Positions 39,073 through 45,274 of a stretch of DNA of 64,000 nucleotides are shown here, in pieces; position 1 is the stretch's first letter, and the number at the start of each line of letters is the position of its first letter. The position numbers were made by a program, and so were the translations under genes. The notes beneath the pieces were generated by a model that saw only the letters and a list, made by a program, of their open reading frames with translations, ran no database searches and was not told the origin of the DNA. This stretch comes from Halobaculum roseum. GTDB taxonomy: Archaea; Halobacteriota; Halobacteria; Halobacteriales; Haloferacaceae. The stretch lies in the NCBI RefSeq assembly GCF_019880245.1, contig NZ_CP082286.1, positions 2,374,521 through 2,438,520 on the forward strand, given 5' to 3'.

Positions 39073-39135
39073 GGCGAGGCCGAACGCCGGCGAGGCGGAC
39101 GCCGTTTCGGACGGTCGTCGGGCGAGGAGGAACGA

Positions 39136-39879
39136 TCAGCCCTCCTCGCCCTCGTCGCCGTCCTCCGGCGTCTCCGGCAACCGAGACGGGTCCGCGTACC
39201 CCTCGACCCCTGACGCGCGGAGGTACTCGCGAAGCAGCGTCGGGAACTGTCGCCCGCGGACGTACCGCAGGCCGAACTGGTCGGCCCACGAGATGATGCC
39301 GCGGTCCTCGGTGACGACGCCCGCCTCGAGTTCGCGCGCGAGCACGAGGAGGTCGAAGTCCTCGCGGGAGTCGAGCACCCCCTGTCGGAGCGCGCGGCGG
39401 TACTTGTCACGGAGGTCCGAGACGACGCGGTCGGCGTCGGACATGTACTCGTGGTCGTCGTCGCCGGCGGGCTCCCCGGCGGTGAGTTGTTCCGGGTCGA
39501 GGGCTTCCACCTCCCGAACGGCCTCCTCGGACACGCGCAGTCCCCGGTCCACGCGGTCGTTCATCTCGTCGACGAACTGGTAGACGATATCGGCGGGGAT
39601 CTGGACGCCGTAGCGGTCGGGGCTCTTGCGGATCACCCACGTGTCGAGCTTCGAGAACACCTCGTCGCTCACGTCCCGGTCCCGCAGCATCGTCGCCAGC
39701 TCGTCGTGGATGGACGGCGGCACGTAGCAGGAGGCGTTCAGCTCCAGACGGGCGGTCGCGATCAGGTCGAGCAGTCGCAGCACCGCGTCCTCGACCGACT
39801 CGTCCTCACGACGGATCCCCTCGGTGATGAACAGCGACGTGTCGAGGACGAACTGCTGGCGCGGCGGCGTCGCCGGCAT
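39136..39879 (-). CDS. RNA ligase partner protein (PIN-like)
   Basis: 247 aa. [15 protein letters not shown] at the N-terminus and [32 protein letters not shown] toward the C-terminus give PIN-domain acidic residues (D in LDTS, D in FDLLVL, E/D in VTEDRGI). I recognise it as the archaeal 'RNA ligase partner' family, found next to the ATP-dependent RNA ligase gene, here divergently arranged. It is probably a nuclease or an inactive PIN working with the ligase. The start at 39879 has a ggtttttgccg TATA-like element ~28 nt upstream; 38 further codons upstream overlap the promoter and are rejected. Confidence 0.85.
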
Positions 39880-39991
39880 ACCCGGCGATACCCGGGCGAG
39901 CGGCAAAAACCCCGGCGTCGTCATCGTCGGCGCTCGCGTCCCGTCGGAGTCGTCGCCGGCTTTTCGGGCACCGTGTGCGTATCTCTCACAC

Positions 39992-41125
39992 ATGGGGAAC
40001 GCAGCGGAGACGCTGTACGACCGGCTGGATCCCGACGTAACCGACCCCGCGGACCTGGGCGAGCACCTCGAACGCCACGAGCGGCTCGGGCGCGAGTGCG
40101 CGGCGCTTCCGGACGCGCGCCACGGGCTCGAACGCGGGACGGTCGTCGTGGACGGCGACGCCGTCGTCCGCGGCTACCCGAGCGTCCCCCGCGCGCTCGT
40201 CCTCGATCCGACCGTCTCCGAGCACTTCGACGCCGAGCGGGTCGTCGTCGAGGAGAAGCTCAACGGGTTCAACGTTCGGATCGTCGACCTCGGGGACGGC
40301 CAGCCGCTGGCGTTCACCCGGAGCGGCTACCTCTGTCCGTACACGACCGATCGCGCGCGGACGCTGCTCGACCTCGGGGCGTTCTTTCGGGATCACCCTC
40401 GGGCGATGGTGTGTGCGGAACTGATCGGGCCGGAGACGCCGTACACGACCCACGACTACGACGGCGTCGACTCCCACGCGTTGCGCGTCTTCGACGTTCG
40501 CGACCGGGTCACGGGCGAACCGCTCCCGGTCGACCGGCGACGCGAGCGGTGTGCGTCCTACGGACTCCCGCAACCGCGCGTGTTCGGGGCGTGGGGGCCC
40601 GAGTCGGCACCGAGGCACGTCCGACGCGTGATCGAGGACCTCGACGAGCACGGGCGCGAGGGCGTCGTCATGAAGTCGCCGGACGCGACGACGGCGCTGA
40701 AGTACACCACCGAGACACACCACCACGCGGAGGTGGCGTACGCGGCGGGAACCCCGTTCGAGCGCGGGCGGGACTTCCTCTTCTCGCGGGTGATGCGGGA
40801 GGCGTTCCAGGCGTACGAGTTCGACGAGAACGGCGACCGGCTGCGCGAGCGGGCACACGACCTCGGGGAGTCGCTGCTGGTGCCGTTCGTCGAGACGATC
40901 CGCGAGGTCGCCGCCGACGGGGGAGTCGGCGACGAACACGTCGCCCGCGGCGATCCCGAGCACGTCGGCGCGCTGCTCGATCACCTCCGGGCGTTCGGCG
41001 TCGAACTCGAGGTGATCGCCGACGAGACCGACGGGGACGATCGGGTCGTCCGGTTCCGAAAGGTCGCCGAGGCGACCCGGGACCGGACGCGTCACTACCT
41101 CTCGGGCGGCACGTACGACGAATGA
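39992..41125 (+). CDS. ATP-dependent RNA ligase, Pab1020 family
   Basis: 377 aa nucleotidyltransferase. The adenylated lysine is K89 in [11 protein letters not shown] (KxNG motif I); [12 protein letters not shown] is motif Ia/III-like, [20 protein letters not shown] is motif III/IIIa, [17 protein letters not shown] covers motifs IV-V. The Pyrococcus homologue circularises and adenylates RNA, so a role in RNA end sealing or RNA circle formation is likely. A ggcttttcggg TATA-like box ~28 nt before the ATG shows a leaderless promoter back to back with that of the partner gene, so the two may be co-regulated. Confidence 0.9.
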
Positions 41126-41182
41126 CCGCGGACCGTTCCGGTCGACGGTACAGATTTCCCGCGAGCGCCCGACGCGTTCGGT

Positions 41183-43788: not shown

Positions 43789-44898
43789 TTACGTCTGTTC
43801 GGTCGCCTCGGGGTACGTAGGTAGCCGCAGCGACCGCGCGCCCCCCTCGACGAACGGGAGGTCGGCGCGCTCGGCGGCGACCTCGTCGCCGTCGACGCGG
43901 ACCGCGAGGTCGCCGGCGTCAGCGTCGGCGTCGAAGTCGAGATACGCGAGCGCGATCGGCGCGTCGAGCGACGGTGACTCGACCGCGCGAGTGATCTCGC
44001 CGACCGAGGCGTCGCCGTCGAATACGGCCGCGCCGGACTCCGGGAGGGCATCGGGGCGGAGGCCGACGAGTCGCTTGCTCGGCCGGCCGCGGTTCTCCAC
44101 CTTCGAGACGACCTCCTGGCCGACGAAACAGCCTTTCTCGAAGTCGACGGCCGAGCGGACGCCCGCGACGTTCGGCAGGCGACCCCGGAGTTCGGTGTCG
44201 AACAGCGGCGTGCCGGCTTCGGCGGTGAGCATGCCCCAGGTGGTGTAGCCGAACGGGGCGGCGTTGAGGCCGCGCGTCAGGAGGGTGTCGAACACGCGTT
44301 CGGCCTCGTCGGCGGCACAGACGACCTCGTACCCCTCCTCGCCGGTCGGGTTGTCGCTCGCGATCACCGTGACGCCCACGTCGTTCATCCGCCCGCGGAC
44401 GAACGTGAGCTCGGGCTCGGGGGAGCCGGCGCCGTTGAGGACGGAGGCGATCTTCTCGGTCGAGGTCGGGCCGTGGACGCCGAAGACGCCGAACTCGTCG
44501 CTTGCGTCGCGCAACTGGACGTCGTCGATGAAGACCTTCCCCTCCCAGTCCTCGACGAGCGGCTCGGCGCGGTCGGGGGGCGTGAACAGCAGGAGGCGCT
44601 CGCCGGCGTTGTAGACGAACAGCTCGGTCTCGATCGCGCCCTGTGGGTCGAGCAACAGCGTGTAACAGCCCTCGCCGTCCGCGCTCGGGACCCGATTGGA
44701 GACGGCGTTGTCGACGAACTCGACGCGGTCGTCGCCCTCGACGATCACGACACCGTAGCCCATCTCGATGGCGCCCACGCCGTTGCGGACGGCGCGGGCG
44801 GCGCTGTCCGGCCGACCGTAGTCCGCGACGACCTCGCGGCCGCCGCGGTCGGTGAAGGTGGCGCCGTGGTCGGCGTGCACGTCGGCGACGAGACTCAT
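43789..44898 (-). CDS. YgfZ/GcvT-fold folate-binding protein
   Basis: 369 aa of the aminomethyltransferase fold. The motif EKGCFVGQEVVSKVENRGR near residue 250 is the YgfZ signature K-G-C-(Y/F)-x-G-Q-E, which separates it from glycine-cleavage T protein. YgfZ proteins bind tetrahydrofolate and help the assembly or repair of some Fe-S enzymes; the conserved Cys is needed. The N-terminus AIEMGYGVVIVEGDDRVEFVDNAVSN follows the T-protein pattern. The start at 44898 was chosen as the ATG next to conserved sequence; 35 further codons upstream are not conserved. Confidence 0.88.
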   Translation of the reverse strand: MSLVADVHADHGATFTDRGGREVVADYGRPDSAARAVRNGVGAIEMGYGVVIVEGDDRVEFVDNAVSNRVPSADGEGCYTLLLDPQGAIETELFVYNAGERLLLFTPPDRAEPLVEDWEGKVFIDDVQLRDASDEFGVFGVHGPTSTEKIASVLNGAGSPEPELTFVRGRMNDVGVTVIASDNPTGEEGYEVVCAADEAERVFDTLLTRGLNAAPFGYTTWGMLTAEAGTPLFDTELRGRLPNVAGVRSAVDFEKGCFVGQEVVSKVENRGRPSKRLVGLRPDALPESGAAVFDGDASVGEITRAVESPSLDAPIALAYLDFDADADAGDLAVRVDGDEVAAERADLPFVEGGARSLRLPTYPEATEQT

Positions 44899-44974
44899 AC
44901 GCGTACGCACACCCGCGGACGCCAAAAGGGGAGCGGAAGCGGTGGGTCGGTGTCGACGCCCGAGCGGGAAGCGC

Positions 44975-45274
44975 TTACAGCCCGAGTCGACGGCGGATCG
45001 CATCGAGGAGCCCCGGATCGCCGTCGACCTGCTCGCCCGGGTCGGGAACGACGCGGTCGTCGGGGTAGATGCGCACGCGCCCGTCGGCCTGCTCGATCTC
45101 GATGAGCCCGGCCGACTTCAGCGCCGACAGCGCCTCCTCCACCTCGTCGATCGTCGCGTCGACGCCGGACCGGAGCTCCAGCACCGTCATGCCGTCGTCG
45201 GCGCGGCCGACGAGCGCGTCGAGAACCGCCACCTCCGTGTCGTCCCTGTCGCGGAACTCGGGCGGCACCCTCAT
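44975..45274 (-). CDS. winged-helix protein (DUF6432-like)
   Basis: 99 aa. The central part (EVAVLDALVGRADDGMTVLELRSGVDATIDEVEEALSALKSAGLIEIEQADGRVRIYP) is a winged helix of MarR/ArsR-like type: recognition helix around IDEVEEALSALKSAGL and wing EIEQADGRVRI. It may regulate transcription or bind another protein. The C-terminal DAIRRRLGL is a short basic helix. It lies 76 nt upstream of ygfZ on the same strand, so the two may share a transcript. Confidence 0.8.
   Translation of the reverse strand: MRVPPEFRDRDDTEVAVLDALVGRADDGMTVLELRSGVDATIDEVEEALSALKSAGLIEIEQADGRVRIYPDDRVVPDPGEQVDGDPGLLDAIRRRLGL

Follow-up and report, generated by a model that had tools for sequence, protein, structure and literature searches.

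In the haloarchaeon Halobaculum roseum, genes for an RNA ligase and a nuclease-like protein lie back to back, which raises the question of whether the two products work on the same RNA and, if so, which acts first. Both genes lie in the window (the whole stretch of 64,000 nucleotides analysed, contig NZ_CP082286.1, positions 2,374,521 to 2,438,520; Table 1). Here we report that they belong to two known families, have intact active sites and point away from each other, that across genomes the ligase depends on its partner, and that within the genus the two are present or absent together at one site. Based on these observations, we infer that in H. roseum the two enzymes act on the same RNA, the nuclease ahead of the ligase, and that this RNA is circularised. 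We give roughly an even chance to the full reading, in which the nuclease (HARP) acts first and makes 5'-phosphate ends, the ligase (Rnl3) seals or circularises the product, and within haloarchaea the two genes, served by divergent leaderless promoters, have for the most part been passed on, transferred and lost as a single two-gene unit.

Table 1. Positions of features in the window
Feature	Position	Strand	Remarks
eL15-Euryarchaeota ribosomal protein leader, RF03144	12848-12906	+	48.1 bits
Stretch between uvrA and the BNR-repeat gene, holding both genes here and in G014	39073-41182	.	uvrA and BNR adjacent in the genus's 9 other species
HARP ('RNA ligase partner protein'; homolog of Aquifex RNase P), PIN_5 nuclease	39136-39879	-	247 aa, ATG at 39879
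Acidic loop of HARP, variable in length, near residues 125-146	39442-39507	-	N-terminal to the helix with the RNA-contact arginines
Divergent promoter region	39880-39991	.	112 bp between both start codons; same arrangement in G014
TATA-like box of HARP, TTTTT	39905-39909	-	-30 to -26 from the HARP ATG
TATA-like box of the ligase, TTTT	39961-39964	+	-31 to -28 from the ligase ATG
ATP-dependent RNA ligase, Pab1020/MthRnl type (Rnl3)	39992-41125	+	377 aa, K89 in KLNG
GcvT-like folate-binding protein	43789-45003	-	near the pair; CAF17/YgfZ domain 62.8 bits (cut-off 49)

Judged by its sequence, the minus-strand gene is that of HARP, a member of the RNA-free (protein-only) RNase P family, because its product matches TIGR03875 (241.3 bits; cut-off 95.3) and PF08745, PIN_5 (247.9 bits; cut-off 27), and because all seven solved-structure sequences that it matches significantly are named RNA-free ribonuclease P. 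The original prediction had described a PIN-like partner, which was right as to the nuclease family but missed the HARP identity. The family name "RNA ligase partner" is itself older than the 2025 paper on the pairing. The HARP ATG aligns with an ATG in all 44 genera kept for the start-codon check, and a longer open reading frame, to 39993, is a mechanical extension only.

Conservation of the acidic residues, on which the prediction had laid weight, is complete: the putative catalytic residues D13, D170, D174 and D192 are invariant in 87/87 haloarchaeal HARPs (68 come from genomes with the ligase and 19 carry the label ligase-less, including one that is a second copy inside a ligase genome; three partial rows were excluded). 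The same 87 all keep R157 and R161, arginines of the spike-helix domain that are predicted to contact RNA. These residues were matched to those of Aquifex Aq880 by eye, from alignments to solved relatives and motif spacing; there D7, D138, D142 and D161 are indispensable, and R125 and R129 variants are impaired in the activity table, according to the available part of PMC8266387. Haloarchaeal HARPs thus share the PIN_5 family, the four aspartates and the two arginines with the Aq880-type enzyme; unlike it, they have a variable acidic loop, which differs in length over the 87 proteins and is long in the window's HARP. This loop falls between helices 95-124 and 147-164 in a monomer model of low confidence (pLDDT 57). 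The sequence matches to solved HARPs are strong. A further difference is that the window's HARP, whose cleavage activity is predicted, coexists with RNase P RNA in the same genome (95.7 bits, cut-off 84), so that it is not required as the sole or main RNase P. The locus touches on why a protein-only RNase P is retained in some prokaryotes next to the RNA-based enzyme.

The plus-strand gene matches TIGR01209 (339.6 bits; cut-off 136.9), the Lig_C domain PF18330 (120.6 bits; cut-off 25) and PF09414 (RNA_ligase), has the solved relatives 5d1o (E 1.9e-87) and 2vug, PAB1020 (E 6.5e-48), and gives a confident structure model (pLDDT 85); it is predicted with confidence to encode an RNA ligase of the TIGR01209/Pab1020 type, Rnl3. 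The nucleotidyl-acceptor lysine, within the KxxG motif (VEEKLNG), is kept in 70/70 haloarchaeal ligases. In family, C-terminal domain and lysine the protein resembles Pab1020 and MthRnl; it differs in being a haloarchaeal copy whose ligation activity is predicted. Rnl3 of the MthRnl type joins 5'-phosphate RNA ends, as stated in the accessible text of PMC5599603.

The region between the two start codons holds two T-rich boxes about 55 bp apart. For leaderless haloarchaeal transcripts a promoter box is expected at about -28 from the start codon, and both boxes fit such promoters. With 44 genera aligned, the A+T fraction peaks at 0.78 at -28 of the HARP ATG, against about 0.23-0.36 further upstream, and the HARP box is more than chance; upstream of the ligase it is 0.73 at -28 in the 15 genera with one candidate or unambiguous start. 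No sigma-70-type site was found, a result that is uninformative for archaea. The original prediction of divergent genes with TATA boxes about 50 bp apart, one of them for a Pab1020-type ligase with K89 in KLNG, has been borne out.

That prediction also took the pair for a cut-and-seal or RNA-circularising system. The evidence favours this, but the pairing and a circularisation model were already in print and had been overlooked: in mBio in April 2025, Seshadri and Gopalan described divergent pairing of HARP and Rnl3, their co-occurrence and a cut-then-circularise hypothesis (PMC12153264). Our findings agree with theirs in both families, in the typically divergent arrangement, in co-occurrence in archaea and bacteria, and in that every ligase-positive genome is HARP-positive. 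The window's copy is ordinary for its kind; what goes beyond the 2025 paper is the uvrA/BNR site in its two states (pair present or absent), the distance correlations referenced to uvrA, the ligase remnants and the megaplasmid copies.

Cleavage of the RNase P type gives the body of the RNA a 5'-phosphate end. In the mechanism that we favour, both genes would be expressed from the two divergent leaderless promoters, HARP would cleave a structured precursor RNA to leave such an end, and Rnl3 would join this 5'-phosphate to a 3'-hydroxyl, forming a circle when the ends lie close. HARP would act before the ligase and, in genomes that no longer have the latter, could have a second use as a weak back-up RNase P.

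We place HARP first, and allow it a spare role, because the dependence between the genes is one-way. The order sample comprised 391 genomes, at least 90% complete and drawn evenly, with overlap counted by hand from the lists. Over the cut-offs, HARP was found in 176 and the ligase in 130; all 130 ligase genomes also have HARP, so that ligase-only genomes number 0, as against about 71 expected under independence, and 46 of the 176 HARP genomes have HARP alone. The family sample of 170 genomes, which overlaps the order sample and in which species are likewise non-independent points, has HARP in 55 and the ligase in 22, all 22 of them with HARP. The dependence, then, runs in one direction, from the ligase to HARP. 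This asymmetry is the one expected if HARP supplies the ligase: on its own the ligase would be of no use, and HARP may retain a spare function.

The same pattern appears within genera. Four of them (g1, g3, g19 and g20) include species with both genes as well as species in which neither passes the cut-offs, and among their listed species none has the ligase alone. In the window's own genus the BNR-repeat gene is present in all 11 genomes; the order uvrA-HARP-ligase-BNR occurs in two species, those of the window (G000) and of G014, and in the other nine uvrA adjoins BNR, with about 50-200 bp between them. Neither HARP nor ligase was found over the cut-offs anywhere in the genomes of those nine, G012 and G013 giving no more than sub-threshold matches to the HARP model. 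Because two species have both genes and nine have neither, with uvrA and BNR adjacent, HARP and ligase came or went together at this site. The uvrA-GGR neighbourhood also holds the pair in G177 and G280 (family f9), and G020 (family f1) has HARP alone near the same uvrA-GGR genes; the f9 and f1 loci are at different places relative to BNR. With the one-way dependence, and with related species of one genus that differ by just these two genes at a single site, the co-occurrence already published becomes an order of events that can be tested.

Linkage of the two genes was counted in the 118 of 130 pairs with coordinates listed for both. No more than 2.6 kb separates the matches in 108, every one of these pairs is divergent, and 74 have under 400 bp between them; the remaining pairs are on different contigs (six, some perhaps through assembly breaks) or more than 5 kb apart (four). 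The window's pair, with both genes present, is divergent and within 5 kb. Strains of Haloarcula, Natrinema and Halobellus are among other carriers of a divergent pair. Linkage is tighter in this sample (108/118) than among the archaeal pairs of PMC12153264, where 163/501 lie within 5 kb. In 34 of the 118 genomes 0.5-2.6 kb separates the HARP and ligase matches. In family f5 this space holds a conserved open reading frame of 132-147 aa on the HARP strand (e.g., L262, G268:C2:68340-68774), whose product starts MR(I/L)ELRVCQHCL and matched no family over a cut-off. We rejected this protein as a third partner and regard it as a neighbour only, since its relatives occur in 122 of 293 genomes searched, many of which have no HARP or ligase.

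The divergent arrangement of HARP and ligase bears on a rival explanation, raised in PMC12153264 and in our judgement somewhat unlikely, that the two proteins have separate jobs in a shared niche. HARP would be a back-up RNase P that withstands stress, the ligase would repair or circularise broken RNA, each would be of use under harsh conditions, and the genes would travel together for no other reason than being neighbours. Such an association does not predict the one-way dependence (0 ligase-only vs 46 HARP-only among the 391 genomes), and it sits poorly with divergence as the sole arrangement among the 108 close pairs. What it does predict, if linkage drives the correlation between the two proteins' distances, is a loss of that correlation in unlinked pairs, and this was found in three of five.

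Over 28 genomes the distances of HARP and ligase correlate with r 0.65, and 0/2000 permutations were as high (2 of 30 genomes had no match at threshold and were dropped). Correlation with uvrA distances is weak for both (r 0.19 and 0.17), and the partial correlation of HARP and ligase given uvrA is 0.63; this yardstick is a single gene, which separates families (0.176 within, 0.221 between). With one genome per genus (49 genomes) r is 0.68, rising to 0.74 for the 44 linked ones, and the five unlinked genomes give 0.86, 0.54, 0.21, -0.04 and -0.51, so that clear agreement is kept in two. As three of the five lose it, physical linkage may account for much of the correlation, and the partners seem open to exchange, which is evidence against an obligate complex of co-adapted proteins. 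The lowest value belongs to G169, where HARP and ligase (L106, L107) are on different contigs and have conflicting affinities; an exchange of one partner is possible there. The G169 ligase appears as two matches in one frame.

Coupled action of HARP and Rnl3 remains our preferred reading, although the 10 unlinked pairs of 118 and the 46 HARP-only genomes of 176 count against it. In the HARP tree the window's protein belongs to a clade with support 100/100, whose 18 rows come from three families. Five of the six long end branches are ligase-less, as are 19 of the 87 rows, with group sampling that differs; we make no claim of faster evolution in ligase-less HARPs, as sampling is uneven and one of the ligase-less rows comes from a genome that has the ligase, where it is the second HARP copy.

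The pair is also found outside main chromosomes, as a divergent pair on megaplasmids of Natrinema thermotolerans and Halocatena salina; among plasmids, there are five HARP records, two with a divergent ligase. Viruses were considered as carriers and set aside: HARP had no match in phages or IMG/VR, nor the ligase in IMG/VR, the IMG/VR scans being by single protein and reaching close relatives only. A second HARP in one genome (L096, G008:C10) has no adjoining ligase and clusters with other ligase-less HARPs; the same genome has the divergent pair on another contig.

Remnants of lost genes bear on which partner goes first. Among 18 ligase-less HARP loci searched, two hold remnants of the ligase: in G334, 36 residues of a ligase (86% identical) survive at the expected ligase start, next to an intact HARP, and in G067 a weak 19-residue match (E 0.009) lies in the same place beside HARP. 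G071 retains no more of HARP than a fragment some 54 residues long, within a frame of 110 codons and with no ligase nearby (L071, G071:C1:254001-254168); this is likely a decayed locus. Together, the G334 and G067 remnants and the G071 fragment agree with the ligase having been lost first.

This order is awkward for a toxin-antitoxin-like pair, discussed in PMC12153264, in which HARP would damage tRNA or other RNA and the ligase would repair it. PIN domains are common toxins, and the two genes adjoin and move together; a toxin, however, should not be kept without its antidote, and HARP is kept in the 46 genomes without ligase, its active site is intact in 19/19 HARPs labelled ligase-less (the second copy included), and the supposed antidote is the one that decays first, beside an intact HARP in G334 and, weakly, in G067. 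The asymmetry predicted is the opposite of that seen, and we regard this explanation as highly improbable.

Genetic evidence touches the coupled model from another side. According to the review PMC10941002, growth is as in the wild type when HARP is knocked out in H. volcanii or in M. mazei. In our controls H. volcanii has HARP and no Rnl3, the latter stated also in the accessible text of PMC9014305, so the H. volcanii knockout could not reveal anything that HARP does jointly with the ligase. M. acetivorans, a relative of M. mazei, does have the ligase, and together with the wild-type growth of the M. mazei knockout this speaks against an essential shared role.

As to what the pair might act on, the original prediction knew of no established natural substrate in haloarchaea, and none came up in the literature searched. 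In Pyrococcus abyssi, relatives of Rnl3 circularise RNA, as recounted in PMC12153264. The accessible part of PMC9014305 reports that knockout of the Thermococcus kodakarensis ligase leads to loss of circular C/D box sRNAs, and that the enzyme requires a terminal stem. Such sRNAs, known Rnl3 targets in Thermococcales on the evidence of that part of PMC9014305, have been proposed as HARP-Rnl3 substrates (PMC12153264), and haloarchaea could follow the same scheme, with HARP preparing the 5' ends and Rnl3 closing the circles. Two points make this unlikely. One is that, to our knowledge, bacteria have no C/D box guide RNPs. Yet 164 bacteria carry both genes (PMC12153264). The other is that circular C/D RNAs, tRNA introns aside, are confined to thermophiles in the available text of PMC12558985.

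Whole circular tRNAs, with CCA at the junction, are a second candidate; PMC12558985 reports them in H. salinarum, H. volcanii and Haloferax mediterranei. Rnl3 would be well served by 5' ends of the RNase P type, and the pair might on that ground be the maker of these circles. Their presence in H. volcanii, which has no Rnl3, indicates that Rnl3 is not needed and that another ligase can make them; this weakens circular tRNA as the shared substrate, and we see only a slim chance that the pair is its source.

A bolder form of the coupled model, which we offer tentatively and consider rather doubtful, is that HARP and Rnl3 form a mobile two-gene circularising unit in which HARP serves mainly as the maker of 5' ends for the ligase and not as a spare RNase P, and whose products are an unseen class of haloarchaeal circles. 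Such a class could have escaped notice because Haloferax and Halobacterium, the genera with circRNA-seq, appear to be without the ligase: H. volcanii has none in our controls, and in Halobacterium (genus g43) ligase and HARP were over the cut-off in 0/13 genomes, a set that may not include H. salinarum. Genus g43 was taken for Halobacterium on the strength of two plasmid records that match contigs of G236 and G277 identically over 6 kb. The literature searched contained no published circRNA-seq on any haloarchaeon in which the pair has been shown.

No tRNA genes were found in the window, and the eL15 leader is the only Rfam family there over its gathering score. Close to the pair, the window also encodes a GcvT-like folate-binding protein (Table 1).
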